Part shown: piece after piece, positions 2,026 through 36,238 of the stretch | Layout: each line of letters opens with the position of its first letter | Position numbering within the stretch: the first letter of the stretch is position 1 | Source of the DNA: Siphonodentalium dalli | Taxonomy: Eukaryota > Mollusca > Scaphopoda > Gadilida > Siphonodentaliidae | DNA length: 64,000 nucleotides | Assembly: GCA_032622095.1 (NCBI GenBank) | Contig: CP136069.1 | Span: forward strand, 87,504,958 to 87,568,957 | Direction of reading: 5' to 3' | Notes under the pieces: generated by a model | What the model was told of the DNA's origin: nothing | The model's input: only the letters and a program-made list of their open reading frames with translations | The model's database searches: none | Program-made: the position numbers and the translations under genes

Positions 2026-2361
2026 TTGGACAAGGTTCCGAAATGAGTCCAATCTGGTCAATGGCGATATCTCCTAAATATCCATCTCTCCTCTCTGCAA
2101 TGAATGTCACTGTGTTTCCTTCAAATGGAATGCATTCCTCTACCCAATTTGAGCTTTGATTTCCTGACTTGCTCCATAGGACATTTGAGTCAGAGTTTCG
2201 GATGGATAGCTGACCAACATCTTTTCCAAGCATGTGATAATAGAATAGTAAGTTTCGCTCTCCTGCAATGTAATCTTGGTTCAGACTGAAATGCACAGAT
2301 GTGGTGTCGCCTGATGTCCCGTCACTGGCATCTGCATACAAATAGTAGTCTCCACTAACAG
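2026..2361 (-). CDS. MAM domain 2, second-half exon
   Basis: Exon of the large minus-strand gene, encoding the C-terminal two thirds of a MAM domain. Phase 1 entry gives V-S-G-D-Y-Y-L-Y-A-D-A-S-D-G, the MAM 'GHYLYxDAS' segment. Further on come LLFYYHMLGKDVGQLSI and, at the end, GYLGDIAIDQIGLISEPC, the MAM signature with its last conserved cysteine. The acceptor is TTGTTTTGTAG and the donor CCAA|GTATGT, at 2025-2024. Length is 336 nt, phase 1 at both ends. It joins in frame to the half-MAM exon at 21382-21534 (junction D-D-T-T-V-S-G-D). The frame runs on into the adjacent family A MITE only because the donor is ignored. MAM modules mediate adhesion or dimerisation of extracellular proteins (family knowledge). 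Later exons of the gene lie off the left edge. Confidence 0.85.
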
Positions 2362-2931
2362 CTACAAAACAAATTTAACCTCGATTTTAATATGGCTGTA
2401 ATGATTTAGGAGAAGTGATAGCCCATTGTGATATGTGGTGTGTGGGAATGTGTCTGTTACCTGGAAGGAGGGTGGGTAGTGTGTTGTTTAACTAATGCGT
2501 TGATAGGCGTATGTGACGGTGAGACTGAAATTATGTAAATATCTACTGTGTGTGATGTTATTTTTCTACTTCTTATTCGTTATAGGACATATTTATACTT
2601 CTTGTGTGGTCATGTTTTCTATGTGTATATATGTTAAATGTATGTGTTCGTATTTGATAACTCTTCATTCGATGGAGGAAAATAAAGATATATATAGACA
2701 ACGGATAGTCAAATTTGATAAGGCCACGCAAAATCAATTTTGCATTTTTCAGGCCCACCATGTGTGAAATGTTTTTAATCGCATTAAATCTGTCGGAGAA
2801 AGTTCTAATTTGTACAAAATAATGGTGTTATGTTTTCTATAAAACATGCACAGAATTGAGATAGATTAGAATCGTTTCCCAGATTTCCAATTCATTGCTG
2901 TAATAGGTAACTTTATTCAAACATTTGTTAA
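2362..2931. other. intron, no feature recognised
   Basis: AT-rich intron sequence upstream of the MAM 2 second-half exon. No exon-like frame with matching splice sites or repeat family was recognised. Confidence 0.5.
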
Positions 2932-3150
2932 CCCTTCATGATGGGAGCTGCGCTGGTACAGAACTAAGATCCTGCATCAGTGCATTCTCTTATATATTTG
3001 AGTCTACCATAGGGAGCCTCGGATATAAAAGAGAATGCATTGGCTTACAAGGTCAAGGTAAATATTATTAGGCCAAGTATTCTCTTATAAATGCGAGGCT
3101 CCCTATGTGAGACTCACATATGTAAGATAATTCATTTGCACAGGTTTTTC
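2932..3150. mobile_element. family D piggyBac-like MITE, right end lost
   Basis: Preceded by TTAA at 2928-2931 and starts CCCTTCATG. It contains two foldback segments of the type GTGCATTCTCTTATAT...ATATAAGAGAATGCA around a GTCAAGGTAAATATT spacer. The right terminus (CATGAAAGGG-TTAA in complete copies) is missing. Confidence 0.75.
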
Positions 3151-3242
3151 ACAAACAAAGAAGAACAGCTCTAACAGTCAGGGCTGCAGGTTGCAAAATT
3201 CACCCCACAGAGTCAAGTCAATACAATTGAGCATTGTAGGTA

Positions 3243-3363
3243 CTGTAATGCCCTAAATAATCGACTTCTGATGAATGGCAACAAGCCATATTTCTGACTA
3301 AATCCTGAAAAGTTACCCATAATTCTGCCGTGGTTAAGGAGTCGATTATTTAGGGCATTACTT
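3243..3363. mobile_element. family A MITE, internally deleted
   Basis: Left tip CTGTAATGCCCTAAATAATC, then a jump to the right arm (GATGAATGGCAACAAGCC) and right end GGGCATTACT. It lacks most of the left arm. Confidence 0.75.
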
Positions 3364-3795
3364 TAGCACATCAGCAACTTAAATATTCATGCTAACAGGG
3401 ATATTCCAACTGAATAAATGTGAATAAATGGTGGTGTTGTGTGCGAGTAGGTGGAATGTCATAGAAACAGTCAATCCATAGGAACATTGATGAAACCTCA
3501 TGCCATTATCGTGTAGTCTGTTAATGTCAAAGTTTTTTCCCACTCATTACATAATACTTGAACCCTTTCATGGCAAGGAACTGCGCTGGTGCATCATTAA
3601 CCCTTTGGCGAGTAGAACGACATATATATCGTCTATCGGTTGAGGAGTAGAATGACATATATGTCGTTTCAGGAAGTGTTATTTTATGTAGACATAACTT
3701 CAATAAATCATCTGATTTATAAATGATTTGTATAGGAGTTATTTTGATTAATATAATGTCCCAAATGTATAAGTGCAATCAATTATGATAACACA

Positions 3796-4545
3796 CGTTA
3801 ACAACAAGGGGTACGCATCTAAGATGCTTTTGTTGAGTTTTTTGGCAGTCGAACCAAACTTCTGCCAATAAGGTGCACAACTCCGGGAAAAAAAAGTCGG
3901 ACGGTGGTATATTATTGCAATAGACCTATATACCAAATATCAATTGAATCCGTTAATATTTCATTGAGTTATCGCACTAACAGTGATAAAATTGTTATTA
4001 AAATAGACAAACTAAGACCCATAACTCCGGAAAAAAAATTTGGACAAACCAGGTTTTCGAACTCGTCCGAGATATTGTTGCAAGAGACTCATATACCAGA
4101 TATTGTTTAAATTGGTTAATATTTCATTGAGATATCGCGCTAACGGTGATAACATTGCTAAAAATAGACAAACTAAGACCCATAACTCTGCGAAAAAAAT
4201 TCGGACAAACCTGGTTTTCGAAATAGTCCGAGATATTGTTGCATGAGACTCATATACCAAATATTGTTGAAATTAGTTAATATTTGTGTGAGTTATCGCG
4301 CTAACGGTGAAAAACTAAAAAAAAAGTCATCAAAGATGGATAACTCTTGTCAAAAAGTTCGGACGTGACCCATTTTCTACAGGCAGTAAATAGTCATTGG
4401 GAGCAACTGACATACCAAAATTTTTTGGAATCCGTTCACAAATGTCAAAGTTATAAGGCATTCTTTAGGTCCACCCACCCGCCCGCCAACCGTCCCTCGT
4501 CAAAATGCACATAAATTAAAACGAATTATTAGACACTTTTGACCC
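3796..4545. repeat. family F repeat
   Basis: Several copies of a roughly 110-bp module containing CCATAACTCCG, TCGGACAAACC, GGTTTTCGAACTCGTCCGAG and GAGACTCATATACCAAATAT. It ends in CCCACCCGCCCGCCAACCG. The uninterrupted counterpart of the split copy at 15.0/19.0 kb. Confidence 0.7.
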
Positions 4546-4562
4546 GAACTTGTTAATACTTA

Positions 4563-7500
4563 GGGGTCATCTCAAAACTACTATCGGGATCCCGATAAAT
4601 ATCCCGATAGGATTCGGATAACCGATAGAGCGGTCGCCATTTCCCGAAAATATTCCGATACCGCATCTAAATATTCCGATAACACGCTGATTTCCCGAAA
4701 ACTTTCCAAAAGTAATGTACGTAGCGTATTGCCAACTTTCCGATAATTTACCCATTTATTTCAAGAACAATTAGGCCTATTTCTGTTTTGATAATCGACG
4801 AATCGAGCGTGTTGTTTTGTTTATATGTTTCTGTTTCCGGTTCTATTTGTTGTCATTACTTTTGGATTCGTCCGCAGCCTCCTTCGTAAGCATATTTTTA
4901 TTGGGGTGGAAGCTTGTTTAAAAGAATTAAAACTCTACACGTTTCAAGTTTCGATTCCAAGTTATTAAATTGTCCATTGAATTATTTTTGCATATTTTTC
5001 ATACAGCACATATCTCCTAGAAACGCTCTGAAGGAAATATAAAGAGAAATGGTTTCATAAAGGCTGTATCCCTTCAACACTAGCAATAGACTGTTCCAAA
5101 GTGAACGTGATAAAAAATTGAAATATATATTTGATAAAAATCGAATAAATTACCAAACATGTGAAATGAATGCCATAAGATTACGATAATTACTACACAT
5201 TGGCTTCAAATAGTTGATTTCCGATCGCAGGTATCTTGCTTCAAACAATGTTTGAGAACCATATTGTTCGGCTGATATTCCCCATCTGATTTGCGCTTAT
5301 TTTTGGCGCCATCAGTATCTTGTAAACAATTCACGCCACCAGGATTTCGATTCATCATTCAAGAATAAATTCGTTCTCAAAACTACGGGCAATAAATATA
5401 ATTTTGTCCCGTGTATTGTTTTTATCAATCATACTCGGTGTAAAATTGACAAGGTAATTCTTAAATGCAAATAACGAAATGCGCTAAATCATTAATTTTG
5501 AAAATGGCGCGTCCTGCACGTGTTCGCTGGCCTCGCCGCCTATACTGACACAAATAAAACATAACACAAGTTTTACGTAGTCAATTCTTTAATTTTTCAC
5601 ATCACAATTTGGCGTATTTCCTGGAGACTATCTAAGTGATAATGCGCAGTGAATGTGAACATTAGTAATCACACAAGAACAAAATAATCAGCGGTGACAA
5701 AAATGTTTACCCCTCCGAGAACCTTATATGCACCTAATGTTCGTACTTGACGAGGGGCGTAGGAACTGGGGGGGGGGGGGGGGTAAGGGGGTTTTCTAGA
5801 AAATGGTCAACAATTAAACTACCACTGGTTTGTGTTATCATACAAGTACAAACGGTATCTAATTTGTCCAAAGCTCCAAAATAAATCAACACCAAGATTT
5901 CCAAGATGAATTCAATATGAAATTATTTGAAGAGTAAATACGGAAACCAGACCATCGAAGGTAAGCTATGCTTCATCACAGCTAGTACTTTGGCACTGCT
6001 TAAATGGCGAATCTGCCTGCTTTATCGAGGCCATCTTTCAGTTACATGCACTACTACTATGGATTAGGCTGGGAAAGCTGAGAATGTGAATATATAATTA
6101 TGTAAGTATAAACATATATGTCATGTTTTCGTGGAAGACTGCTCCATTTGTACACACACACTTATGAGAGTCAAAAATGATCTCCATACTATTCTGTACA
6201 ACAGGTGAAAAACTAGAATACCATATTTTCCCTCAATTATTTAAAGTAATTGCTGTCACAGATGCAACGAAATGCAATCTGAGGGTTTTAAATTCAGAAA
6301 AAATTCCTGGGGGTGTTCCCCCAAACCCCCACCAACGAGAGGGTACACCCCTCTCGTGCTCTCCCCATCTCCAGCCTGCGGCTGTCGTCGATGGCCCCTC
6401 ATATTCGACTTTCCTACGCCCCTGATACCCCCCAATAATTATACCTTCCTACGCCCCTGTACTTGACCCAGTTATGATCGATACATCCCTGCACATTTCG
6501 ATGCGTCGATCATGCCGTCATATATGACATAATATTTATTGGCAAGTCATTTTAAAACAATGGACTGGCTATTAATATCGAAAGTACGCGCATTTGAGAT
6601 ATCAAACTAAATAAAAGTTAGCAAGACATCTTTTTGAAAAAAAATGACAAAATATAGGAGCAGGCCTACTACAAATAAATCGCATCGTGTTACCTTGACC
6701 TTGATGATGCAATCGTGAAATTCGACACTGTCAACATAATTAGGCTATGTTCAACTTATCGAAATAATCAATGCAGCCTTATAATTAGTAGTAATTACAG
6801 AAAACGAAATTAATGTAGAATATGAAAAGCAGCCCATGCACTCATTTAATTGCCAGTTAAATGGTATGATTGCTTCGCGTATTTATAACCTTTGCACTGC
6901 AGATTTGCATGGAATTTTCCATTCATATTTTCACAGGTCTGTATAGACGCTCTATATTTACGATATTACGATTCATGAAAAAACTATGGAATATTACTGC
7001 TAAATGTTGCTAAAGGACACTGAATGTACAGCAGGAGTTCCATGCATGTGCTGGTAAACAAAAATGCAATTGCGTTATAAAGCACATCAAATGCTGCATG
7101 GACATTGCACATTGCAATATAAATTTCGCCTAGGCTATGTATATTCGGAATATACGTGTACACAGGCCCAATATTTTTTTAAGCTTGAGTTGACCCATGT
7201 TTGAAATTGTTTTATAAATCCGTTCACTGTGTGAAATCTGATAACGATTTGTCTTCCAAGACGTATTACTCTGCAATGCCACATGTGTTGTTCCCAGAAA
7301 CGTAAATATTGATGACCCCAATTTCTGGAATCGGGCTCCATATTTAAAAGTCAGATGTATTTAAACATATTACAAACACAAGCTTTGAAGATAGTATAGG
7401 CCTACAACTGCATACATATTTGGGTATGCTCCCCTTGAATTGATTTTGAAGATTTCCCGATGGGTGGGGTGTATTGTCCGGGTAAAATACCGATCTTGTA

Positions 7501-7884
7501 CGTAGCACCCACTGATCACCACAGTATAACATATAATAGTTCTACGACACGTGTCCCCTGCATGATACTGTAAAACTTTATACTAACGATTTCTCATATT
7601 AGGAAACTATTAAATCAATAATAAAGATAGGCCTATAAAACATAAAATCCTGATAAAAGTCCGGAGTAATCCCGATACAGAAACTTTCCAAACAACATGC
7701 GTTGTTTTCGGAATATGATACTCCGAAATGAAAGTAAACTCCGATAGAATCCCGATAGACTATGTAAATATTCCGATAATTTCCCGAAAAACATTGCGTC
7801 ATTTCCCGATAATTTCCCGATAACTGTATATATATGCTATCGGGAAATAGGTTGATTTCCCAATAGGAGTTTTGAGATGACCCC
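4563..7884. mobile_element. 3.3-kb Harbinger-like element, no transposase seen
   Basis: Inverted ends start GGGGTCATCTCAAAACT on both sides and remain similar for about 28 bp. Both sides are flanked by TTA (4560-4562 and 7885-7887), the 3-bp duplication typical of PIF/Harbinger elements. Many TTTCCCGATAATTT-type subterminal repeats occur at both ends. No transposase-like frame was found, so it is non-autonomous. It lies in the intron between the exons at 8897 and 2361 and contains a hAT-like element at 5752-6459. Confidence 0.85.
5752..6459. mobile_element. hAT-like non-autonomous element nested in the Harbinger-like one
   Basis: Ends GAGGGGCGTAGGA and (reverse complement) CAGGGGCGTAGGA. Exact 8-bp duplications TACTTGAC flank it at 5744-5751 and 6460-6467. 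A G-tract of about 15 lies just inside the left end. No transposase. The nesting shows it arrived after the 3.3-kb host element. Confidence 0.9.
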
Positions 7885-7957
7885 TTATTGCTATGAAGTT
7901 GACGTTAAATTTGCTCATGACGTCATGTATATGATGTTACATATACTCTTCAAAGGG

Positions 7958-8178
7958 TTAAAGACCCAGTGCCAGTGCATTCTCTTATATATGCAAGTGT
8001 CGCATGTGAGCCTCGCATATATAAGAGAATGCACTGGCTTACAAGGCCAAGGTAAATATTGTTGGGCAAATGTATTCTCTTATAAATGTGAGGCTTCCTA
8101 TGGGAGACTCGGATATATAAGAGAATGCATCGGCAGAGAGATTTCGCAAAATTTCAGGAAACTCCAGTCATGAAAGAG
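7958..8178. mobile_element. family D piggyBac-like MITE
   Basis: Two foldback segments (CTCTTATATATGCAAGT type) around CAAGGCCAAGGTAAATATTG. The right end CATGAAAGAG is followed by TTAA at 8179-8182. The left end is degenerate but begins beside GGGTTAA. Confidence 0.8.
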
Positions 8179-8277
8179 TTAAAACATAGATGGTTGATAT
8201 AACTGAGATGATAAATTGCATTCAGGGCTACACACCACAGTACAAAATCACCGCATAATGTAGCTTATTCTTGACTA

Positions 8278-8394
8278 CAGTAATGTCATAAATAATCAAC
8301 TCCTTAACCACAGTAGAATTATGGGTAATTTTTCAGGATTTAGTGAGAAATATGGCTTGTTGCCATTCATCGGAAAGCTCTCAATGAGCCAATC
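8278..8394. mobile_element. family A MITE, left arm only
   Basis: ACAGTAATGTCATAAATAATC through the TCGGAAAGCTCTC centre. The right arm is absent, so the palindrome has been halved. Confidence 0.75.
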
Positions 8395-8441
8395 CAGAAT
8401 ACCCCCATTTTTCTTCAAACGTGGAGGTATAATAATCCTTA

Positions 8442-8859
8442 AGGTGCATTACACAATTAAGCTTGCTTTGTTTAATTCCAAATGGTAACTACAGGGGTGA
8501 TGCTGGATGTTCACATTACACCACTCAGCAAACTTTTTAAAGCACGGTTTTATCAGAAAATCTTTCCAAAACTGTCAATCATAATTAACAGTGTATCACC
8601 AAATAAATAACATTATATTTACTAACGCGACTCCAATAATGTGAACTACACATGTGGTTTGTATCAGACATCAAGAGGAATTCTGTTATTTAACTGCTAC
8701 TTGACATTAATGGGGGCCATTAGCTGTATGCAAAAATGGCTCGGTCCCTTCTTTGGGTAATTAATAATGCTGAGCTGTATGAAATGACATGGTATTACAC
8801 GATGCAGCCTGCATCATGAGCTTGCTTAACAAAGCAAGCTCAATCATGAAATGGCACCT
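8442..8859. mobile_element. short Harbinger-like MITE
   Basis: Inverted ends AGGTGC with a further matching AGCTTGCTTTGTT stretch about 18 bp in. TTA flanks both sides (8439-8441 and 8860-8862). It lies about 35 bp downstream of the donor of the SRCR exon at 8897-9093. Confidence 0.7.
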
Positions 8860-8896
8860 TTATACATGTACATAGAGAAAGATACTTTTTACTTGC

Positions 8897-9093
8897 CTGT
8901 TTGCGTAGTACTGGATGTTGAGCTATAACACCTCACACCAACATCTTCACTGTGAGAGCAGCCGTAGACATTAGGTGCGAGAGTATGTATACACTGGAAA
9001 ATTGATGATTCGTTGCCTTTACACCGGAGATTGTTCATCCATATTGTTCCATTCCCATAACCATAGTAAGAGCCAGAATAAAAATTGCCCCTA
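8897..9093 (-). CDS. SRCR domain (inner copy), second exon
   Basis: Second exon of a group A (six-cysteine, two-exon) SRCR module. It reads S-R-G-N-F-Y-S-G-S-Y-Y, then GYGNGTIWMNNLRCKGNESS, and ends with GCSHSEDVGVRCYSSTSS, the classic 'G.IWLDDV.C.G.ESS...C.HSEDAGVRC' pattern with four cysteines. The acceptor TTCCATTTGCAG gives phase 2 entry, matching the phase 2 exit intended by the SRCR exon at 11831-11983. The best phase-consistent donor is ACAG|GCAAGT, a GC-type donor (8896-8895). A conventional GT lies 4 bp further but would leave phase 2. This exon itself is intact; its partner carries a one-base deletion, so the module may be dead or the partner misread. It sits within the intron splitting MAM 2. 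Confidence 0.75.
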
Positions 9094-9224
9094 CTGCAAA
9101 TGGAAGACACAAATAGCATCATTACCACTTTATATGGCATTTACTGGTAGCATGAAATCTTATAATAGCCTGCAGTGTCGGGCCGATAATGTAATTGTCC
9201 ATTGGCAGGCCATGGATAGATAGC

Positions 9225-9933
9225 ACATTACACAAGCAATATACTACGCATGTGCAATGCTTGAGAATAATCCGCGGATACATCTGTTAAAACACTTTAG
9301 AAAATTTACAAACATGTTGCGTAAATGAGGTTGAACAGAAGCTCTTTCAAATACATGCAGACACTTGGTTAGAACAAATGAATTAAAATTCCTGAAGGAA
9401 CTTACTGATTATAACAGAAAAATATGCTTCGATGAATATGGAAAAATCTCACCATTTGATTTTGGCTCAATTTTGATGTGCAATACTTCCATTGAGAACA
9501 GAAACAGAAAAGAGAAAAATAATAAAAGCATTTGCACCATGTGTGATTTACAAGAATTTGAGATCTCGCCTTTTAAACTCTTTTCCAAGTGATTTTGCTG
9601 ACATTATTACAGATAGAAAATATAATTATGCTTTGACAGAAAAAAATTCCCACCTTTGTCAGTTAGCATAATTCCTTACCGATGGCCAAATGAGAAGAAA
9701 AAAATAGCTCATATATATCATACTGGAATTTGAACTGTCAATTTATACAAACATACTTCCCTAATGGAATGATAGTCCCAATCATCATATTTGTTTTTCT
9801 GATGCAAACTTAGTTTGTTCTAATACAGCACAAATATTATTGTAATTTTCTTTGAACACAGCACGTATCTTATATACTTGAAGCATGACATATACATGAG
9901 TCTTATACATCCTGCTGTGCTGAAAGTGTCAAT
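9225..9933. other. intron, nothing recognised
   Basis: AT-rich sequence between the SRCR exon and the family C/E composite. A 75-codon plus-strand frame near 9365-9592 shows no recognisable domain or splice context. Confidence 0.4.
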
Positions 9934-11798
9934 CAAGCCTGAGTTTAGTGTGGCTGTCATTTGCAGAATGAGGTCCACAGAGGGTGAATTTAGTGATCCT
10001 ATTCCGCTGCGTGGGATAGCGTCACTAAATTCACCCTCTAGGGACCTCATTCTGCTTAGGCCTCAACTGCTATTAGAGATCTAGGATCAGATTGCAGTTC
10101 CCAAAAGGTGAATATTGTGATGTACACCCATTGGGAACCTCGATGATATAGAATGAAAGTGTCAATGACAATAATTTAATGGTTGACAGTAAATGGAGGG
10201 ATGTGGTCTGTAGGGTGTGCCAAAGGATTTAGTGATGCAAAGAGTTAATTCTAAAATGGCCACCGGCGGCCATGTTTTTTTGCCGAATGACCCCAAAATG
10301 ACTCGTTCCCATCTACATGTCAATGTCAACATCAATGACAAATTTCATGAAGATCAAACAAACAGATCGGTCTATAACCCATGCTAATAGTTTTTTAGAA
10401 ATATTTAGTCATACAAAGAGTAAAATCCAAAATGGCCATTGGTGGCCATATTTTTTTGCCGAATGACCCCAAAATGACTTGTACCCATCAAGAGGTCACC
10501 CCGATGATCCATATGAAGTTTGGTGATGATCAGATCAAGGATGTGGTATGTAGGGTGTGTCAAAGTATTTAGTGATGTAAAGAGTAAAATCCAATATGGC
10601 TGCCGGTGGCCATGTTTTTTGGCCAAATGACCCCAAAATAACTCGTACCCATCAAGAGGTCACCCCGATGATCCATATGAAGTTTGGTGATGATCGGATC
10701 AGGGATGTGGTCTGTAGGATGTGTCAAAGGATTTAGTGATGCAAAGAGTAAAATCCAAGATGGCCGCCAGCGGCCATGTTTTTCGGCCGATTGATCCTAA
10801 AATGATACGTTCCCATCTACATGTAATTGTCAACATTCATGACAAATTTTATGATGATCAGATAAACAGTACGGCCTGTAGCCCGCACCAATGGATTCAA
10901 TTTTGAATTCGAAGATGGCCACCAGCGGCCATGTTTTTTGGCCGAATTACCCCAAAATGATTCGTGCCCAACTAGGGGCCACCCCAATGATGAATATGAA
11001 GTTTGGTGATGATCGGATCAGGGTTGTGGTCTGTAGGGTGTGTGAAAGTATTTAGTGATGCAAAGAGTAAAATCCAAGATGGTTGATGGCGGCCATGTTT
11101 TTTGGCCGAATGACCCCAAAATGACTCGTTCCCATCTACATGTCAATGTCAACATTCATGACAAATTTCATAAAGATCCGACCAAAGATACGACCTGTAG
11201 CCCGCGCGAAAGTATTTAGTGATGCAAAGAGTAAAATACAAGATGGCTGATGGCGGCCATGTTTTTTGGCCAAATGACCCCAAAATGACTCGTTCCCATC
11301 TAGAGGTCGCCCCGATGATCCATACGAAGTTTGGTGATGATCGGATCAGAGATGTGGTCTGTAGGATGTGTCAAAGGATTTAGTTATGCAAAGAGTATAC
11401 ATGACGTTTTTTGGCCGAATGACCCCAAAATGACTCGTTCCCATCTACATGTCAATGTCAACATTCATGACAAATTTCATAAAAATCAGACCAAGATACG
11501 ACCTGTAGCCCGTGCCAAAGGAAATTGTTGACGGACACACGCACACAAGGACGACGGACGCCAACCCATGGCAATAGCTCAAACTTACAAAGTAAGTTGA
11601 GCTAAAAACTAAACTAAAAAAGAAATCGAATCTACGTGAAGAAGTTTCTATAGAAATTTTATAATAAAGATACTTTCCAGAGAAGATGAGGCTTAACCAG
11701 AATGAGGTCCCCAGTGGGTGAATTTAGTGATATGCAGGATCAATTCACCCTCTGGGGACATCATTTTGCAAATGACAGGCACCTTATTCTCAGGCTAG
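9934..11798. mobile_element. family C element carrying an E array
   Basis: Left foldback module of C (9934-10150: CAAGCCTGAGTTTAG...GAGGTCCCTAGAGG) and right C module (11605-11798, ending CTCAGGCTAG), split by the E array. Right of the array, AAACTAAACTAAAAAAGAAA matches the spacer of the short C element at 20.9 kb. Flanking 8-mers GTGTCAAT and CTATCAAT are similar but not identical, as expected for an old hAT-like duplication. Confidence 0.7.
10150..11604. repeat. family E tandem array
   Basis: About nine diverged modules of roughly 150 bp, each with AATGACCCCAAAATGACTCG, TTCCCATCTACATGTCAATG, ATTTAGTGATGCAAAGAGTA and AAAATCCAAGATGGC followed by GGCGGCCATGTTTTTTGGCC. The array ends TAAGTTGAGCTA, the inverse of the TAGCTCAACTTA start visible in the copy at 39937. 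Several apparent frames over the modules are repeat-derived. Confidence 0.8.
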
Positions 11799-11830
11799 CT
11801 ATCAATCAGCAGACATATAGTTATCATACC

Positions 11831-11983
11831 TGAAACCAAGCATACGGCATATGACGTTGGCGCTAGCACTGTAAAATCCATCATCACAGATAGTTCCCCA
11901 AGCACCATTTACATATATCTCTACTGTGCCTCTGTCAGTGTAACTGGAATACCTCCTCAGTCTTATTCTTTGATCATCAGTGT
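11831..11983 (-). pseudogene. SRCR domain (inner copy), first exon, frameshifted
   Basis: First exon of a group A SRCR module. Phase 1 entry after ATAG reads [13 protein letters not shown], then [20 protein letters not shown]. At about 11880 one base is missing. Beyond it the SRCR frame resumes only one base over ([10 protein letters not shown]), ending TTTCAG|GTATGA. Length is 153 nt; the in-frame module needs 154 to exit in phase 2 and join the exon at 9093. As written, splicing to that exon reaches a stop soon after the junction. This is either a decayed module or a single-base sequencing or assembly error; nothing else in the exon looks degraded. Confidence 0.8.
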
Positions 11984-12036
11984 CTATATTTAGATAAGAA
12001 ATTCAAAATCATAAATAAAATGAAAAGGACAATTAA

Positions 12037-12245
12037 CCATTTAATGACGGGAGGTGCGCTGGTGCAGCATTAATAACCCTTTCAGTGCCAAGTCCGATTT
12101 TTGTATCAACCCATATTTCCTTGATCATTTTTCAAATTTATTGTTTATAATAATGTGATACATTGATGGAAATAGCTCTTATGATTCTGTGCCAGTACCT
12201 TCTCTTTATATATATGTGAGTCTCACAAAGGGAGCCTCGCATAAT
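12037..12245. mobile_element. family D MITE split by a family B insertion
   Basis: TTAA at 12033, then CATTTAATGACGGGAGGTGCGC (D start) up to GCAGCATTAA. Family B sequence intervenes (12077-12180). D resumes with GATTCTGTGCCAGTACCTTC and CACAAAGGGAGCCTCGCAT. The right part of D is missing. Confidence 0.65.
12077..12180. mobile_element. family B piggyBac-like MITE, one arm
   Basis: CCCTTTCAGTGCCAAGTCCG through TTGATCATTTTTC to a GATGGAAATAGCTCTTA centre. Only the left arm of the palindrome seen complete at 37264-37427. A TTAA at 12070-12073 lies just before it. Confidence 0.7.
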
Positions 12246-12345
12246 ATGATCATGTACGTAAACGTAATTTGCGCCCGCTTGTTACTGTTCATGGGATTAT
12301 CGGCTGAATTGTTATCTTTATTGAAGGATTTGATGATAAACCCTA

Positions 12346-13134
12346 AGGGTGGATACACACATGCATGTAATTATCTGTAATTATCGTGTATTTGGCGTTT
12401 TACATGGATCATACAGACGATGTAATAAGTATGTGTCCACTGACAACACAATCATTGCCTACGTGTTGAACGCACTGAGTTCTAGTTCCAATTAAGTCGG
12501 AATGTAGATAACCCGTTATCTTGGACCAAGTCGCCAGGCCACTTAAAATAATTGTTCGTGGGATAACCCATATGGTAGACATTCTATTTAAATAATTACC
12601 AGTCCTCTCTTATTTATAGCAGCGGTGGATCAGGATTTCCCCGACGCATGCAGGGGCTATATATGACCCCGAAAGCTACCAGGCGGGGGTGGCTGACTCT
12701 GAGCTATTTAAGTAAAACATATCATATTGTACCTTCTTGCCCAGATTATTCCGACTGATACATTCAACTAAGTCCCTTAGCGATTTGAAGCTTTCGAGAC
12801 CCCACCCAAACAAGCATCATGGTTGAAAATGTTCTACATCAAGCCTACAGGTACATGCCAGACATATGACTTCTGGTGTTCGTGCATTAATAAAATGCCA
12901 GATATCACACAGACTTGACTAATGTCCGCATCCGTAAGAGAAGACATGTTTTGGACTGGCCTTAAATGTACTGATAGAAGACAATTTGACTTCGCTTAGC
13001 ACTAACTCACTTGTCTGGCCTGTTAACAATGAACCGCTCGCGCGCAGGTGATTAATGTTGTCAATTATTGGTGTGGCCATGTAAAATACATGTATTTAAC
13101 ATACAGAAATTACATGCATGTGTGTATCCACCCT
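12346..13134. mobile_element. 789-bp TIR element with TA duplication
   Basis: Inverted ends AGGGTGGATACACACATGCA, matching for about 30 bp, flanked by TA on both sides (12344-12345 and 13135-13136). No coding frame. The TA duplication points to the Tc1/mariner group. Confidence 0.75.
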
Positions 13135-13930
13135 TATAATGGGACACAAGAAAATGATATATACAATGTATGTAAATAATCACATAGATAACGTAAATGT
13201 GGATATTTAGCCTGCCATGTAATACGAGTCTCAGCTGTCTGGCCATCGACGCAGTCCTGTCTGGAGTTTTGCGCGCCGGTGTAGGTAGTGACGTCATGAT
13301 GTACGTCTTGATGTCATGACGCCTTTACTGGTTTTCCAAGAAGGAATCTTAAAATGACTCTGCGATCTTTCAATCGGAACTTAAAGTTTCCGTTTGTCGG
13401 CCTTGAACTTTGAGAATATTTCATCAATCTTTTAGGTGGAAATACCGTTAGAAAATGGAAGATAATATGTAAACGACCAGCAAGGTCGCTAGATTCCTCT
13501 TTCGGGGTAAATATTTTACATAATTTTATGAAATATGTAAACAAAACTTTTTCATGCAATTTAACTTTTTTGTTAACCAGAGCTTTTGTTCAATTTACAT
13601 TCACTTTTTGAAATATATTTGGCTTTAGGAGCATGATGTTCCTACATATGATGAAGTATAGCTAACAGTTGCTAGATCAAAGTTTTTTATTTTTGCCCTG
13701 GAGCATTTTTCCCAATTACACATTTCGAGGTGGCATTAATCAATACAAAATGGCGGCCGTTGCCAACAATAGAATTTTTGACTCCGCTGACCCTGGCTGA
13801 CCCTTCAGTTATGAATAAATTATCTTATTTTAGGTGATTTAAATTTATTTTTAGATTGGGCCGAAAAAGTCAATTAGTATATATCTCATATTCGCATACG
13901 TATACCCTGGTCGCTTCGCTTCCGCGGCCG
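13135..13930. other. intron, nothing recognised
   Basis: No exon, TIR element or shared repeat family recognised. An AAAATGGCGGCCGTTG motif near 13750 resembles the family E AAGATGGC motif, but it stands alone. Confidence 0.4.
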
Positions 13931-14095
13931 CTATAAAAAGAGAATGCACTGGCTTACAAAGTCAAAGTAAATATTGTTAGGTCAATGTATTCTCTTATAT
14001 ATGTGAGGCTCCCTATGGGAGACTTGCATATATAAGATAATGCATTGTCACAGGGTTTTCGAAAAATTTCAGGAAGCTCCAGTCATGGAAAGGTT
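13931..14095. mobile_element. family D MITE, 5'-truncated
   Basis: Begins inside the first foldback (AAAAGAGAATGCACTGGC), then CTTACAAAGTCAAAGTAAAT, the complete second foldback, and AGTCATGGAAAGGTTA. Confidence 0.7.
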
Positions 14096-14149
14096 ATTAT
14101 TTCATATACAATATCAGGGAAAACATTTCTAATCTTTTGCAATGATTTA

Positions 14150-14400
14150 CTTATAGACATATTTTGGACTTGTTCGGGTACGTGAAACTGGTAAGTTAGT
14201 ATTCAGGCACCATGCCAACTGGAAGAATGTAGCATTCTACTATCATATCTGAAAATCTGATGCAAATCGACCGTACCACTCCAAAGAAAACATCGTCCAA
14301 ACTATGCTCAAATGTAAATATTTCCTTCTAGATTCGGGACGCAACTATCAGCGATAAACTTACGAAAACAATATTGCCATAGAAAGTTACTGCATTTCAT
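14150..14400. repeat. family I dispersed repeat, copy 1
   Basis: ACATATTTTGGACTTGTTCG, GTGAAACTGGTAAGTTAGTA, GGAATGTAGCATTC, ACCATACCACTCCA(G)AAAACATC and TGTAAATATTT motifs in order, shared with copies at 14745, 22060 and 26305. Confidence 0.7.
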
Positions 14401-14541
14401 TAATATATAAGAATGACGGTGTGTGTTGTCAATTTGGAAATAATATTTGTAAAATATAACTACTTTGAGGAAGATTATTCACCATTTCTAATTGATCACC
14501 CTACTGGAGTGTTTCACATCACTTTAACACTTTCTTTACTA

Positions 14542-14670
14542 CACTAATGCCCTAAATATCTCAGTGAGAGCTTTCCGTGGAATGGCAACAAGTCATATTT
14601 CCGACAAAATCCTGAAAAGTTACCCATAATTCTGCTGTGGTTAAGGAGTCGATTATTTAGGGCATTACTG
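14542..14670. mobile_element. family A MITE, deleted left arm
   Basis: ACACTAATGCCCTAAATATC joins directly to TCAGTGAGAGCTTTCCG and then the full right arm to GGGCATTACTG. Confidence 0.75.
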
Positions 14671-14744
14671 TAACTACTCATTGACAAATAATTACCTTAC
14701 TGTTAGGAAATGTCAGATAATAAGTTCAACAAATGGCCATGTTG

Positions 14745-15000
14745 AACTTAAAGACATATTATGCACTTCTGGTGCGTGAAACTGATAAGTTAGTACTCAG
14801 GCGCTACGCCAACTGGGGGAATGTAGCATTCTAATAACGTCGCCGAAAATTTCAAAGAAATCAACCATACCACTCTATAGAAAACATCGCCTGAACTACG
14901 ATCAATTGTAAATATTTACTAGATTCATGATGCAACTATCGGCGATAAAATAATGCAAATGATTTCGCCATCAAGAGTCATTGCATTTAATTAATACAAG
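14745..15000. repeat. family I dispersed repeat, copy 2
   Basis: Same ordered motifs as copy 1 (AAGACATATTATGCACTTCT, GATAAGTTAGTACTCAGGCG, GGAATGTAGCATTCTA, TGTAAATATTTACTAGAT). It ends next to the family F start at 15000. Confidence 0.7.
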
Positions 15001-15103
15001 GGGTACACATCTAAGATGCTTTTGTCGAGTTTTTGGCAGTCGAACCAAACTTCTGCCAATAAGGTGCACAACTCCGGGAAAAAAGTCGGACGGTGGTATA
15101 TTA
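15000..15103. repeat. family F repeat, left piece of a split copy
   Basis: AAGGGGTACACATCTAAGATGC through GTCGGACGGTGGTATATTA matches the start of the intact copy at 3800-3915. It stops abruptly at 15103; the rest resumes near 19009. Confidence 0.7.
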
Positions 15104-16369
15104 GGGACCTTGTCAAATTACAAGCGGAAATTCCGCCGGAGAACAGAGTTTTTTCCTCCGCTCTCCGCTAAAAACTCTGTTCTCCGCTTGTGAAATTTTA
15201 ACGCACACAGGAGTTTTTCCTCTGCTGTAAATTCCGGTAGTAATTACGGCTAACTCCGTTCAAATTGGCAGAAACTCCGCTGAAACCAGAGCTGTAACTC
15301 GCTGTGACGAGAGCGGTACCAAACTCCTCTGTTAGGCCGGGGAGCTTGTCCAAATTAAATTGGAATTTCCGTCTGAGAACTTTTATAAATAAAAGACTAA
15401 AGTCCCAAATAAATGATTCCCAAACCCCGGTTTATGCATGCAGCCTATTTTCACTGTCACATTTCAATCCTACGTTTTCATGTGGCCGCAAATCCGTCAC
15501 AGTGGGTGACAAAGCCCCGAATATCTCGTGAAGTGCTATTAAGGGGCGGTCAAATGACCAATTTTATTGAATGGGGATTTCCATGCAAACCACACCAACA
15601 AAAGTTATATATGAAACATTGTCTGGGAACTATTTACAGCAGCCATATGATTAAACAGACATAACATTTAACTGGCGGCTGGGTTTGGTAAATATGCAAT
15701 TTTTGCTATAAATTTATTTTTGGAATTACAACACGAAAAATAAATTAAAAATAAATACATAAACTTTCTCAATGGAACAAATTCTAAGCCGACCCGCCAT
15801 ATAAATGTGTATTGTTTTCAATACCGCACAACAGTCACACCCGGAAATATCTGTAATTTGTAACTTTTACTGCTGAGATTTGCATGGAAATGTCCATTAA
15901 AAATTGGTCACTTGACCTTCTCCTTAATTTGCTGCGTTGTCGAATTATGAAATTATACCGTAATCCAGTGCTGCCGTAAACAATGCAAATTTGATTTCGT
16001 ACAAGTAATTTTGCGATTTGGTAACTTGTCCTCATTTTGTTCATCGGTCACCGTTAATGTGCAAACCAGTATCAAAAGAAGAATAAAGACTCAAATAAAT
16101 TATTCCCCTACCCCGGTTTATAGTATACTTTCCGTGTGACATGTTTCAATTTGTCATTCTATTTCTATATCAAACTCACTTTTAATGGTGAACGCAAAAC
16201 AGGGGGTTTACAGCTAGCCTAAAAAGTTACACAGTCATCTCCGCACGTGCTATATTTGCGACATCGTCGGATTCTGAGAATACTGTAAACCCAGTGCTAT
16301 TAGTGTCGTAAACAATGAAAATCTTTATAGATGCTCCCAATGATACAGACAGCTAGTCGGCTTATTTGG

Positions 16370-17511
16370 TAGAGATGGGCGGTACTCGGTATTTACCGTG
16401 CGGTATCGATCGGTATCAGCGTAATACCAATATACCGTACCGAATCAAAACTAAAAATATCGAATTTGCGGTTCAATTAAAATTATTCATCAATTTCATG
16501 TGTTGCCAACTTGTGTGTCTTTGTAATTGTATTGAGTAAAGTTTATCAGTAAACACTCCCTAATTTCGTAGGATATATTTATAGTATGCTATGTTGTTAC
16601 CTTTCTATTAATTGATCATCGGCATCGTGCAATTGCGCAACTTTTAACTGGCGTAAGCGATTTTTCGCCCACGAAGATTTACGAACCTAAATATATTCAA
16701 ATCGATTACACAATGGCTTTTGAATAGTTAAAGATGGAGCAGTGGCTTCACGGTCCTAATTTGATCGAGCATGACAGGGAATCTCTGAATCTCTTAGAGA
16801 AAGTGACAATAAGTAATCATGTTAAAAACATTAACGCAATAGTCAGTTATATGATGTGGCAAAATTAATGTTGATTGGCACAAAGTCTGCGTGTCGCACG
16901 TGCCCAATATCCTGAATAATCCATGGGAGTACGGGGTCTGAATTTCCCTGAAATCTACTTTCACTTTCTAAAAATAGAACAGATCCATCAAATTATTTAA
17001 GAATTCTTTTATACAACGTGTTTTGCTCAAATACATAATGCTGTGTTTGCATGGCAGATTTATTTCGCCGTTGGGACTATTTATTGCGATTTGTGAATTG
17101 TAATTTTATTCATTCACGAAAATGTAATGTGACGAAATTGACACGTATATATATTGCAGTCATGCATTGAGCATTCTCTCATTCTTTTCAAAAGCTGCAT
17201 TCTCTCATTCTTTTCAAAAGATGTGCGGTGGCATGTGTGTAAATGATCAAAGAGATGTGTGAATATCACTTAATTGTGCAGGTCATTTGTTGCGTAATTT
17301 AGCTGCAGTCAGCCAGTCACGAATGTAGTAAACCCGCGGACCGTGCGCATATACTGTTCGGTAATAAACTTGGATTACCACAATTTACCGGAAATCTCTA
17401 ATCTGGTCTTATAATTGAGAGCCAATAATACCGATTACCATACCGTTACCGAGGTAAATCAACGAAAATTTACTGATACCGAGATTGAAATTTCAATACC
17501 GCCCATCTCTG
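16370..17511. mobile_element. 1.1-kb hAT-like non-autonomous element
   Basis: Ends TAGAGATGGGCGGTA and, reverse-complemented, CAGAGATGGGCGGTA, with further GGTATC-rich similarity inside. Exact 8-bp duplications TTATTTGG lie at 16362-16369 and 17512-17519. No transposase frame. Confidence 0.92.
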
Positions 17512-17519
17512 TTATTTGG

Positions 17520-19008
17520 AGAGTCAGCAGCGTGACAAAATTCGTGATTTCGTGATATCGCCCTATTAACGTTCTTGTGCGATTCGAGTTTTCCATGTGT
17601 GGTATTTTTAGATATCATATTCCACCAGTACAAAACCTTGGAACTTTTTGAAGTTTCAACAGGCAAACTTAACTATATGTTGCAGAACACCGGTCTTTCC
17701 AATTACGGTACCGATTGAATAAGTATAGGAAAACATTGAAAACATGGATGACGACGAGTCGCTATAAATGGTGAAATTTGGCGCCCGGAACGATTTTATC
17801 GCTGCCGAGTTGAAGCTGAGTATGTTTATAGGAAACAGGCGACATATGCCCAATATTTTGTGTTTAGTGCTTTTATCTGAGATAAATTTGTCCGGGCACC
17901 TGGTTAAGCCTGCATAACTTGAATCATCGACGTATATCGATGCTTGAATATATTATATTAGGATACTGATTTATAAACTCGATTAAACACTTATTTTTGG
18001 GACTTTATGTCCAGTAACTGTGGAACTATTTATATGCTTTAAATTATAGCAGCCTGGTATCTTGAAAAGTTAAAAATTAATTGGGTCACTTGAACCTCAT
18101 TCGGCTGGAGTTTATTTCAGTCATTGGAAATGGACACGAAATAGAAGACCTGGTACAGTATACTCCAAGCGTAAAAAATGTCGTTATTTGAATATTCATC
18201 ATTATTTACAGCGAGAAACATTTCCAATCACAGTCCAATGGGGAGAAAATAGTCAAATATTATGGGAGGCTAAATTAAATTCACAGACGCATAATCCAAT
18301 TGCATTGAAACGAAATTTAAAAAATAATTTAACCCAATAACACAACCCAGAGAGAAGATTGAATCTGCCGGTTTAATATGAGTGACAGGCCATGGGGTGT
18401 AGCTTAAAGGGAATCCACCAATCGCGTAAAGAATAGATAAATAGTGAAGAAATTACACAATGGCTTGCCGACAAAATACTAAACAATTAGTGATAATTGA
18501 ATGATAACTAGATGAATATGCAGATTGTGAACCGAACTTGCTAGAATATTGGATACTATGGCAATCGGTGATGAATAAAGTGTACTTTGGTACAAATAAA
18601 GTGTACTTCAATGCGATAAAAGTGAAGTGAAATGACACGATTTACGTGTGTATATATAATAAAGTACGGAATCGGGATCGAAACAGAGCATGCATCGATC
18701 ACTAATTATTACTGCCAATTAATCAAACAATACCTAATATTATAAAACAATGCAAACAACGTGTTAACAGAGGGGTAAATCGTAGATAAGATACAGTGCA
18801 AGTTACTGACTGAATTAATTCTTCTTTGCCATTCATATATGGCTGATAATAAAACATGCGGTGTGTTTCCTAGTAAAACTTCGCAAATTCCGATGAATGT
18901 AACAAAAACTCTGCTATAACGTCACGCAAACTCCGTTACGTCGTAACAAAAACTCTGTTACGTCGTAACAAAAACTCCGCCGGACACTTCGCTTTAACTC
19001 CGATGAAA
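17520..19008. other. remainder of the 3.9-kb insertion, no gene
   Basis: AT-rich. A CTGGTATCTTGAAAAGTTAA-type segment near 18055 recurs near 48120. No exon of the minus-strand gene, such as a second MAM half, could be found here. Confidence 0.4.
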
Positions 19009-19650
19009 TTTTCGGACAAACCAGATTTTCGAACTCGTCCGAGATATTGTTGCAAGAGACTCATATACTAAATATTGTGTAAATCGGTTAATATTTCATT
19101 GAGTTATCGCGCTAACGGTGATAACATTGCTAAAAATAGACAAACTAAGACCCATAACTCCGTGAAAAAAATTCGGACAAACCAGGTTTTCGAACTCGTC
19201 CGAGATATTGTTGTAGGAGACTCATATACCAAATATTGTTAAAATCGGTTAATATTTCATCGAGTTATCGCGCTAACGGTGATAAAATTGCTAAAAATAG
19301 ATAAACTAAGACCCATAACTCCGGAAATTTTTTTCGGACAAACCTGGTTTTCGAACTCGTCCGAGATATTGTTGCTAGAGTCTCATATACCACATATTGT
19401 TGAAATTGGTTAATATTTGCGTGAGTTATCGCGCTAACGGTGAAAAACTTGACTAAAAACCATCTAAGATGGATAACTCTTGTCAAAAAGTTTGGACGTG
19501 ACCTATTTTCTACATGCAGCAAATAGTCATTGGGAGCAACTCATACCAAATTTTTTTTAATCCGTTCACAAATGTCAAAGTTATAAGGCATTCTTTAGGT
19601 CCGCCCGCCCGCCAACCGTCCCTCGTCAAACCATAAGTCGAGTTTTTGAA
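19009..19650. repeat. family F repeat, right piece of a split copy
   Basis: TTCGGACAAACCAGATTTTC, GAGATATTGTTGCAAGAGAC, CGCGCTAACGGTGATAACAT modules, ending CGCCCGCCCGCCAACCG, as in the copy at 3796-4545. A small GAGTTTTTGAAAAACTCGAC hairpin follows. Confidence 0.7.
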
Positions 19651-20314
19651 AAACTCGACTAATAAATATAATGACAATGTGTGTCATCATTTTGGATTAA
19701 TATTCTTAAACATAACTACTTTGAACAAGATTATTCTCATTGATATTCGATCAACCTACCGGAGTGTTTCACATCACTTTAATAGCCAGTATCAGCCACA
19801 CATACTTTTAACTTGTAATGTGTGTTACAATGACATTGCTATGGATATGCACCTGGCGGGAAAGGTCATGTGATATTTCGACGCCAAAACTACATGTTTT
19901 CAATATCGGTGAATGTCTAGTGAAACTTGTATATTATAAACGATAAAAAAAAGGCGAGACAACTCTATGGTGTTTATTTGTCGCCTTGTGTGATCCACAT
20001 ATTACTAGCATCATGATGAATGATGCATGCATGTTGAATTTCTGTTCTGTTCCACGATATACGAGTACAAGAAACCACAATTGGGTTCAATCAAATTAAA
20101 CTCATTCCGTGAAGGCAAATCTCTACCTGCACAGCGCTGATCGGTCATTCGGTGAGCAGAACGATTACTCCTCTTCGCTACATGTTTCGTAGATGCTAGA
20201 TCGACATTGACTCAAAACTTCTAAATGGTTTGACTTCACGTTTAGGCATCACTGTCATGTGGGTCATGCAACTTTTGTTGGAAATGACAACACATGTTAC
20301 AAGTTAACCATATA

Positions 20315-20522
20315 CAGTAATGCCCTAAATAAATGACTCCTTGACCACAGCAGTTAATTATGGGTAATTTTTCAGTCGGAAAAATAGCTTATTGCCATTC
20401 GTTGGAAAGCTCTCAGTGAGAGCTTTCCGGTGAATGGCAACAAGCCATATACCCGACTTAATCCTGAAAAATTACTGATTATTCTGCTGTTGTTAAGGAG
20501 TTAATTATTTACGACATTACTG
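20315..20522. mobile_element. family A palindromic MITE, full length
   Basis: CAGTAATGCCC to GACATTACTG with TA on both sides. The arms differ by a few substitutions. The centre is GAAAGCTCTCAGTGAGAGCT. Confidence 0.85.
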
Positions 20523-20657
20523 TACGTGGTGTGTCTGATCCTGGCTGTTATCTAAACATTTCCCAGCAATTAAAAGGAATCATTCTGTCTGTCATCTGTT
20601 CATACATATATCCCGAACATCCACCCATGATGAATAATATACCAAGTATTTCCAATC

Positions 20658-21112
20658 AAGTCTGAGTTTAGTGTGCCTGTCATTCGCAGAATGAGGTCCC
20701 CAGAGGATGAATTTAGTGACGCTGTCCCACAAAGCAGGCTAGCATCACCGAATTCACCCTCTGGGGACCTCATTCTGCATGGCCTCATCTGCTATGGGAG
20801 AAAAAGACTCTGGTTGAAGTTCCCAAATGGTGAATATTGTGATGTACACCCATTGTGAACCTTGATTATGCAATGTGGCATCTGCCAATTTTTGGGGATA
20901 GAGATAAATTAAACTAAAAAATAAATAGAATCTATGAGAAGTTTCTATAGTAATTTGATAATAAAGAAACTTTCCAGAAAATGTGAGACCTAAGCAGAAA
21001 GAGGTCCCCAGATGGTGAATTTAGTGATGCTAGCCCGCTATGCAGGATAGTGTCACTAAATTCACCCTCTGTGGATCTCATTCTGCAAATGACAGGCACA
21101 CTAAACTCATAT
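20658..21112. mobile_element. family C element, short form
   Basis: Two foldback modules (each GAGGTCCCCAGAGG...CCTCTGGGGACCTC type with a GCTAGC centre) around a spacer. The spacer holds GGTGAATATTGTGATGTACA and AAACTAAAAAATAAATAGAA. There is no E array here, unlike the copies at 9.9 and 39.7 kb. Confidence 0.75.
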
Positions 21113-21381
21113 ATATAATTTTACAATTGAATGAGAGAATCCATTTAATACAGAAAGGGCAACAGAATAAATTTCTTTATTATGCTAATATAGACTTCAG
21201 TTTTATCTATATTTTATTCACAAAAAATGTATTTATAGCCTTAAAACGGGTTTTATAAAATAACTTTGCTATTGTTGATGTTGTAATTGTAGGCCAGAAG
21301 AGATACATGTACACTATCATTAAAAGGAAGGTAGAGAAGAAAGAGGGTGAAAACAAAGAGAACAAATTAAAATGTAAATAC

Positions 21382-21534
21382 TTGTATCGTCCACTCCACC
21401 CGAGGGACCTGTAAGTCTGGAGGGTGTTGAGCCATTGTTGATAGTCCAGTGGTATTGACCACCATCACAGTAATCCATGGTAATTCCACACGACTGTATG
21501 CTGTTCATATCACAGATTTGGTGGTCTATTCCGT
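21382..21534 (-). CDS. MAM domain 2, first-half exon
   Basis: Phase 1 exon of 153 nt. The acceptor TTTTTTTTCAG is followed by D-G-I-D-H-Q-I-C-D-M-N-S-I-Q-S-C-G. The exon continues DYCDGGQYHWTINNGSTPSR and LTGPSGGVDDT, the N-terminal MAM pattern 'C.FE...CG...W....G.TPS..TGPS...DHT'. The donor ACAA|GTATTT exits in phase 1. The usual FE after the first cysteine is DM here. No second MAM half follows in the next 9 kb. Instead the exon at 2026-2361, 19 kb on, continues the domain without a gap (D-D-T / T-V-S-G-D-Y-Y). The SRCR exons at 11.9 and 9.0 kb lie between the two halves. Confidence 0.85.
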
Positions 21535-25136: not shown

Positions 25137-25585
25137 CAGGCCTGAGAATAAAGTGCCTGTCATTTGCAGAATGAGGTCCCCAGAGGGTGAATTTAGTGAC
25201 ACTATCACGCATAGCAGGCTAGCATCACTAAATTCACCATATGGGGACCTCATTCTGCTTAGGCCTCATTTTCCCTGGACATTTCTTTATTATCAAATTT
25301 CTACAGAAACTTTTTTAAATAGATTCTATTTCTTTTTTAGTTTAGTTTCTATATATCCCCAAATTGGCAGATGACACATTGCATAATTGAGGTTCACTAT
25401 GAACAATATTCACCATTTGGGAACTTCAATCTGAGTCTAGGTCTCCATAGCAGATGAGGCCATGCAGAATGAGGTCCCAAGAGGGTGAATTTGGTGATGC
25501 TAGCCCACTGTGTGAGATAGCGTCACTAAATTCACCCTCTGGGCACCTCATTCTGCTAATGAGTGGCACTATAATCTCAGGCCTG
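25137..25585. mobile_element. family C hAT-like element, complete short form
   Basis: Inverted ends CAGGCCTGAGA/TCTCAGGCCTG with exact 8-bp duplications ACCCCAAC at 25129-25136 and 25586-25593. Two foldback modules (GAGGTCCCCAGAGGGTGAAT type) flank a spacer that is inverted relative to the copy at 20.66 kb. This copy defines the family's true ends. Confidence 0.9.
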
Positions 25586-26716: not shown

Positions 26717-27031
26717 CTTTGCAATCTCCTTCTCTAATGGAAATATCATCAATGGCTATAGATGCCAAATAGTTTGGTGACCCTGATTTGTCAGCAAACA
26801 CAATGGTGAAGTTGTCGTTGACAGGTAAGGTAAGACAGCCATAGTTCCATTTGATGTTTTGGGTAGTCCAGAATATCTTGTTATCTAACGTTGCATTATC
26901 CGAGTCAACAACAGACACTTCAATCCTGTACTGAGACTCTCTAGCCTTGTAATAGAACTGGAGATATTTCTGCACGCTAGAACCATAGTTGTAAGTCAGT
27001 GGACGGTTATAATATATCTGGTAGTAATAAC
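26717..27031 (-). CDS. MAM domain 1, second-half exon
   Basis: Phase 1-1 exon of 315 nt. After the acceptor TTTTTATAG it reads G-Y-Y-Y-Q-I-Y-Y-N-R-P-L-T-Y-N-Y-G, then YLQFYYKARESQYRIEVSVV, NIKWNYGCLTLPVNDNFTIV and SPNYLASIAIDDISIREGDC. This is the second part of a MAM domain with its buried hydrophobic strands, the conserved third cysteine (YGC) and the terminal 'IAIDDIS...G.C'. The donor AAAG|GTAAGA lies at 26716-26715. It continues the half-MAM at 28285-28401 exactly (D-H-T-T-A-T-G / Y-Y-Y) and splices on to the MAM 2 exon at 21534 (E-G-D-C-K-D-G-I-D). Confidence 0.93.
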
Positions 27032-28284: not shown

Positions 28285-28401
28285 CTGTTGCAGTTGTGTG
28301 ATCATTATTGGGCCATTGATAGGAATAACTTCTCATTCTACCACCACTATAGGAAATTGATCCACAGTCATCCTGCTCGAATGTACAGTTGTCAATCGTT
28401 T
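28285..28401 (-). CDS. MAM domain 1, first-half exon
   Basis: Phase 1-1 exon of 117 nt following TTATTTTCAG. It reads (E)-T-I-D-N-C-T-F-E-Q-D-D-C-G, then SYSGGRMRSYSYQWPNNDHT and T-A-T, with donor ACAG|GTATTC. The C-x-F-E...C-G start and the W...DHT end are the diagnostic N-terminal MAM pattern, in a short form of about 39 residues. It splices from the SRCR exon at 36078 (C-Y-M-P-E-T-I-D-N-C) and into the exon at 27031. Confidence 0.92.
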
Positions 28402-36077: not shown

Positions 36078-36238
36078 CTGGCATATAACACACTACACCA
36101 GCGTCGTCATAGTGGCTGCATGAACTAAAATGTTGTTGGAATTTACATTCAGATAGGGACGATTCCAAACCAGTACATCCCAAATATTGAAGCCATATTT
36201 TCCCAGTGCCATATCCAAAAGAGCTAACATATCCTTTC
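36078..36238 (-). CDS. SRCR domain (outer copy), second exon
   Basis: 161-nt exon, phase 2 in and phase 1 out. The acceptor TTTACACCTTACAG leads into [52 protein letters not shown] and donor CCAG|GTATGT follow. Four of the six group A SRCR cysteines are here, in the spacing 'IWL..L.C.G.ESSL..C......CSH.DDAGV.C'. It joins the exon at 39044 in frame (T-L-G-L-G / K-G-Y) and continues to MAM 1. SRCR modules bind ligands outside the cell (family knowledge). Confidence 0.93.

Follow-up and report, generated by a model that had tools for sequence, protein, structure and literature searches.

A two-exon SRCR module between the two halves of a MAM domain in a modular gene of the scaphopod Siphonodentalium dalli

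We analyzed a 64,000-nucleotide (nt) stretch of contig C9 of the scaphopod mollusc Siphonodentalium dalli (C9:87504958-87568957, hereafter the window) against the background of the 2.23 Gb genome, which was searched in nine contigs. On the minus strand of the window lies a large modular animal gene in which SRCR and MAM modules stand in a row with phase-1 outer borders. From upstream to downstream the exons are SRCR1'/SRCR2', MAM1'/MAM2', MAM1, SRCR1, SRCR2 and MAM2, and we assign them to one gene because their order, strand and phase agree. In the last four of these the halves of a MAM domain are separated by two exons encoding an SRCR domain.

The first of the four, MAM1, is a first-half MAM exon (21382-21534, minus strand, 153 nt, phase 1-1) with the donor CAA/GTATTT. 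It is followed by an intron of 9,398 bases (11984-21381), the first-half SRCR exon SRCR1 (11830-11983, 154 nt), the second-half SRCR exon SRCR2 (8897-9093, 197 nt), an intron at 2362-8896 and the second-half MAM exon MAM2 (2026-2361, 336 nt, phase 1-1), all on the minus strand. All four exons have AG acceptors, and the donors are GT with the exception of that of SRCR2, which is GC (CAG/GCAAGT). All outer borders, including that of SRCR2, are phase 1, and the SRCR1/SRCR2 junction is phase 2. The SRCR pair totals 351 nt, is divisible by three and thus constitutes a symmetrical class 1-1 module, so that skipping both exons keeps the frame and skipping only one breaks it. A previous sequence-only reading had placed two MAM half exons with phase-1 outer ends around two SRCR exons, and the exact exons were recovered at those places.

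When joined, MAM1 and MAM2 match the Pfam MAM family (PF00629) over its full length (positions 1-158 of 158, 58.4 bits, E 9.7e-16), which bears out the earlier claim that the halves join in phase 1 into an uninterrupted MAM. The upstream MAM1' and MAM2', joined as a control, also match positions 1-158, with 47.7 bits. When the SRCR is placed between the MAM halves the MAM match is reduced to positions 33-158. The SRCR scores 89.7 bits both in this chain and as the exon pair alone (PF00530, cut-off 26.1), and the pair reaches 26.0 bits against SRCR_2, under the cut-off of 27. Inclusion of the pair would nest an SRCR in a MAM, as had been proposed, with a phase-1/phase-1 module inside an intra-domain phase-1 intron.

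Group A SRCR domains are encoded by two exons, an arrangement that SRCR1 and SRCR2 share, with their internal phase of 2. PMC2906472 gives six cysteines for group A domains. The joined SRCR has six by eye in the translation, in keeping with the earlier assignment of the two exons to a single group A domain. MAM domains have four canonical cysteines. By eye, the first two and the last are present in the joined MAM, and the third lies elsewhere (in EEC), as it does in MAM2' and in the intact MAM of locus C, a further locus on contig C9. The solved sequence closest to the joined MAM is the C-terminal MAM of MDGA1 (PDB 5oj2; 47.3 bits, E 2e-11), which aligns contiguously across the junction and has no insert at that position.

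A duplicate of the region, located 159 kb away (C9:87664932-87685870), carries all four exons, ordered as in the window. Sixteen collinear blocks, each at least 90% identical, connect the two copies. The four-exon region spans 19.5 kb from end to end, and approximately 12.0 kb of it lie outside these common blocks, including 8,400 of the 9,398 bases of the MAM1-SRCR1 intron (in stretches of 1,680 and 6,720 bases). Intron divergence in 12 of the 16 blocks is 3.7% (316 of 8,530 sites). The frames are open and the AG, GT or GC splice dinucleotides are kept in both copies; the MAM1 donor is identical, and the SRCR2 donor is GC in both. The MAM1 exon of the duplicate carries a 6-nt in-frame insertion next to the MAM junction. 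A second copy with diverged introns and the same order makes misassembly, raised earlier as a concern, very unlikely; we found no point in its support and regard its probability as negligible. Because the layout is common to both copies, the SRCR insertion is placed before the gene duplication.

The arrangement would be an ordinary one, with two complete MAM domains flanking the SRCR, if diverged half exons had been overlooked. For this, a second half would have to be missing from the upstream gap and, in addition, a first half from the downstream gap. A Pfam search of the three minus-strand frames of both gaps identified no MAM, merely weak unrelated matches under the cut-offs. First halves are short, however, and since Pfam missed two of two known MAM first halves given alone, its negative result for first halves is weak. 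A family model was built instead, trained on 20 first halves taken from contigs C7 and C5; its held-out version contained no C9 sequence. With the held-out version the top ranks (23.0-23.6 bits) went to the first halves of the window copy, the duplicate and locus C, followed by several others at 7-11 bits, with chance-like matches reaching 9.9 bits. The model is not fully sensitive, as the diverged MAM1' of the window was absent from its best 14 matches; this true first half had scored just 1.1 bits in the first family scan. When C9 sequences were added to the model, the best minus-strand match in either gap of either copy reached only 7.4 bits, at 13735, which sits outside the blocks common to the window and the duplicate. 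A cysteine-pattern scan of both strands in the gaps of both copies gave 13 pattern matches, none of them convincing.

The duplicate is informative with respect to the upstream gap. Its MAM1-SRCR1 intron is just 1,228 bases long with a longest open frame of 72 residues, compared with 105 codons for MAM2' and 112 for MAM2, and a second-half MAM exon there is therefore very unlikely. Thus, between 21382 and 11983 no second-half exon is identified by Pfam and the corresponding intron of the duplicate has no open frame long enough for one, while between 8897 and 2361 the family model, within its limited sensitivity, finds no convincing first half. A strongly diverged first half may have escaped these searches. 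Overall, we consider it highly improbable that a MAM half exon has been overlooked. At 8520 on the minus strand, a short frame that contains two cysteines and occurs in both copies was examined as a MAM first half and rejected. It stops 23 residues on, has by eye no phase-1 GT past the residue after the second cysteine, and is not listed by the family model.

Outside of the duplicate, the best match of MAM2 (38%) is an intact MAM at C9:87789364, which has a twin at C9:88022754, and MAM1 shares 40% identity with the first half of the MAM at C9:87789364. The resemblance of both halves to this one intact MAM fits cognate halves. The position of the intron differs slightly from that in other MAM domains. 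The distance from the D of DHT to the donor is 5-9 codons in 22 two-exon MAM relatives; in locus C, counted from the N of NIR, it is 7 codons (relatives' donors were picked by eye where several were possible). In the split MAM this distance, counted from the D of DDT, is 3 codons, and relative to MAM2' and locus C the second half begins four codons sooner. The intron thus lies approximately 3-5 codons 5' of the usual site, and the joined domain is of normal length. The same layout could have arisen by loss, an origin compatible with any of the readings discussed here, if exons between two MAM domains were deleted to leave a chimeric MAM around the SRCR. The array, in which SRCR and MAM modules stand in a row, is in keeping with such an event. 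However, the normal length of the join and the likeness of both halves to a single intact MAM, although it is not the best match of MAM1, make this origin improbable.

The nested SRCR shows 41-53% identity to the SRCR domains with which it was compared, with 59% over one 32-residue stretch. We also considered a recent copy of the upstream SRCR' as its source, which is not favored: identity to SRCR' is 45% over the second exon and 50-59% over 32 residues of the first, not clearly closer than to single-exon SRCRs elsewhere (41-48%). The sequence-only reading had described the locus as a caught intermediate of exon shuffling. As a fresh event this is too strong, given that the layout predates the gene duplication, is present in two copies with introns 3.7% apart, and involves an SRCR at such a distance from those compared.

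To compare selection on the modules we used Nei-Gojobori counts between the window and the duplicate, with the 6-nt MAM1 insertion removed and MAM1' excluded. The SRCR differs by 2 nonsynonymous and 4 synonymous changes, a ratio of the nonsynonymous to the synonymous proportion (pN/pS) of 0.14 (Fisher p 0.021). Over the two SRCR exons, 6 of 351 sites differ (one-sided p 0.024 relative to the intron rate), and the nonsynonymous rate differs between the MAM and the SRCR (p 0.031). From these small numbers the SRCR looks constrained, and the host MAM appears to be under weaker constraint.

Considering the evidence together, we judge it probable, if only just, that a two-exon SRCR was placed in an intra-MAM phase-1 intron before the duplication and that it is translated, most likely nested within the MAM and perhaps skipped in some isoform. 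A class 1-1 SRCR module would have entered the intra-domain phase-1 intron by exon shuffling, and its exons would be spliced between the MAM halves in at least some transcripts. Such nesting is suggested by the apparent translation of the SRCR together with the fact that its nearest in-phase neighbors are the MAM halves. In the predicted product, an SRCR of approximately 117 residues would follow the motif of the first MAM half, and the MAM would fold around this guest as a host domain in two pieces. An additional isoform in which the SRCR pair is skipped and a plain MAM restored is plausible.

Several observations weigh against this reading. The split MAM differs between the copies by 13 nonsynonymous and 7 synonymous changes, a pN/pS of 0.51 with no shown difference from 1 (p 0.16), and the MAM exons differ at 20 of 489 sites, in line with the intron rate (one-sided p 0.72). 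The host MAM may therefore be relaxed or decaying. The ratio of nonsynonymous to synonymous changes does not differ significantly between the MAM and the SRCR, with small counts (p 0.35), and SRCR2 taken alone shows no extra conservation (2.0% divergence versus 1.8% in the flanking intron). The SRCR1 donor is CAG/GTATGA in the window and CGG/GTATGA in the duplicate. The C9 relative ranks only third of 24 for MAM1, as two first halves on C7 align better (86 and 79 versus 74), and in a separate comparison five other places rank above it.

The same divergence also fits a reading in which the SRCR is always included and the flanking MAM halves no longer fold, serving as linkers. The in-frame length difference by the junction is in line with such relics, as is the comparison with the intact MAM2', which has 4 nonsynonymous and 8 synonymous changes and a pN/pS of 0.13. 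However, the ratio of nonsynonymous to synonymous changes in the split MAM does not differ significantly from that in MAM2' (p 0.14), the frames remain open in both copies, and the FYYHMLG, SGNQSS-W and GDIAID stretches are identical in the two. We therefore consider relic MAM halves unlikely.

The splice sites bear on whether the SRCR is included in every transcript. The MAM1 donor has a G at neither -1 nor +5, unlike all 23 relatives, of which 20 have one at -1 and the other three at +5. The donor at the exit of the SRCR is of the GC type, for which PMC2490688 reports an enrichment among genes with alternative splicing. With a weak donor at MAM1 and a GC donor at SRCR2, there is room for an SRCR-skipping isoform. 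Taken further, the main transcript could join MAM1 directly to MAM2 as a plain MAM, with the SRCR pair included, or replacing the MAM, in some tissues or states. The in-frame skipping and the full Pfam coverage of a joined MAM of normal length are consistent with such an optional cassette. However, it is the SRCR and not the MAM that shows the stronger constraint, and splice-site strength is weak evidence, so that we regard this arrangement as possible but doubtful. As for the mutually exclusive cassette proposed earlier, the phases permit a transcript that uses only the MAM, or one that uses the SRCR and leaves out both MAM halves, and nothing positive points that way.

If the SRCR2 donor is left unspliced, the frame meets a TAA two residues on, and this stop is identical in both copies. 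SRCR2 could thus serve as an alternative last exon, with the protein ending after the SRCR. A poly(A)-like hexamer is found approximately 420 bases past SRCR2 in both copies (ATTAAA at +420 and AATAAA at +424). However, A+T-rich DNA contains many hexamers of this kind and this figure has no control, and the donor, apart from its GC, fits the consensus and is kept in both copies. The chance that SRCR2 ends the transcript appears very small indeed. To return to the nested SRCR, a more far-reaching reading, possible but doubtful, is that the gene expresses a protein, maintained across the duplication, in which a loop of a folded MAM displays a complete SRCR ligand-binding domain, and that a splice switch, with a weak entry donor and a GC exit donor, converts a plain MAM into a MAM with an SRCR.

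In MMP-2 and MMP-9, exon-borne fibronectin type II repeats interrupt the catalytic domain, which still folds. What the two cases have in common is an extracellular module that has reached the interior of a different domain by way of exons. The modules differ, with fibronectin type II in a protease there and a predicted SRCR in MAM here. Enteropeptidase (PDB 8h3s) has an SRCR in addition to a MAM, and the two are separate successive domains. It therefore also combines SRCR and MAM in one extracellular protein, but in the S. dalli gene the SRCR lies between the MAM halves, an arrangement for which we know of no other case. The MAM of enteropeptidase is described in PMC9663175. Searches of open-access full text, which takes in neither bioRxiv preprints nor the majority of subscription articles, showed no SRCR inside a MAM. 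Exon-borne insertion of a module into a domain is already known, and SRCR in MAM is new among the literature searched. The theory of module shuffling predicts that a phase-1 module can enter a phase-1 intron inside a domain, and that the outcome should usually be harmful. With such a case preserved in two copies of a gene, it becomes possible to ask whether a host domain tolerates its guest, decays, or switches by splicing.

The remaining modules of the array are found upstream on the minus strand of the window. SRCR1' (39044-39191) and SRCR2' (36078-36238, ending in phase 1) are the first and second exons of a two-exon SRCR, and MAM1' (28285-28401, phase 1-1) and MAM2' (26717-27031) are the halves of the intact MAM. 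Below the window there are more MAM second halves at C9:87497800-87497474 and C9:87493463-87493113. The latter has a clear first half at C9:87494733. For the former there is a weak candidate at C9:87502892 (9.3 bits in the held-out scan); C9:87499704 was ruled out as a first half on reading its sequence. Further copies of the SRCR' exons with 80-88% identity occur at C9:87722455, C9:87942554 and C9:87705774, and the array thus seems to be present in at least three partial copies on C9.

The MAM first halves at C9:87664137 (L004) and C9:87785098 (L008) are very similar, agreeing by eye at 22 of 25 residues. L004 follows the split MAM of the duplicate and L008 follows the intact MAM of locus C. 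The MAM domains that precede them are only approximately 35-40% alike, with the window copy used in the comparison. Such alike first halves after unlike MAMs hint at module turnover in the array.

An open frame upstream of the SRCR'/MAM array on the minus strand (window 45197-45403) has a Frizzled-like (Fz) match slightly below the Pfam cut-off (30.0 versus 32.1 bits). The longest listed open frame of the window encodes 395 residues on the plus strand (56238-57425), and a Pfam search allowing E values as high as 1 gave no match for it.

A 50-base core of a repeat occurs nine times in the window, at 1922-1971, 3273, 8319, 14580, 23105, 26591, 37084, 37175 and 45511, compared with a mean of 0.00 in shuffles. 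By eye it is part of palindromic elements resembling miniature inverted-repeat transposable elements, one of which lies just past the MAM2 donor. A tandem array of an approximately 164-base unit occupies 10199-11512 in the SRCR1-SRCR2 intron. A second repeat (AGAATGAGGTCCCCAGAGGG...) has 17 matches in the window, including those at 9965-10053, 20688-21084 and 25168-25554, and 12 of the 17 make six facing pairs with starts 57 bases apart.

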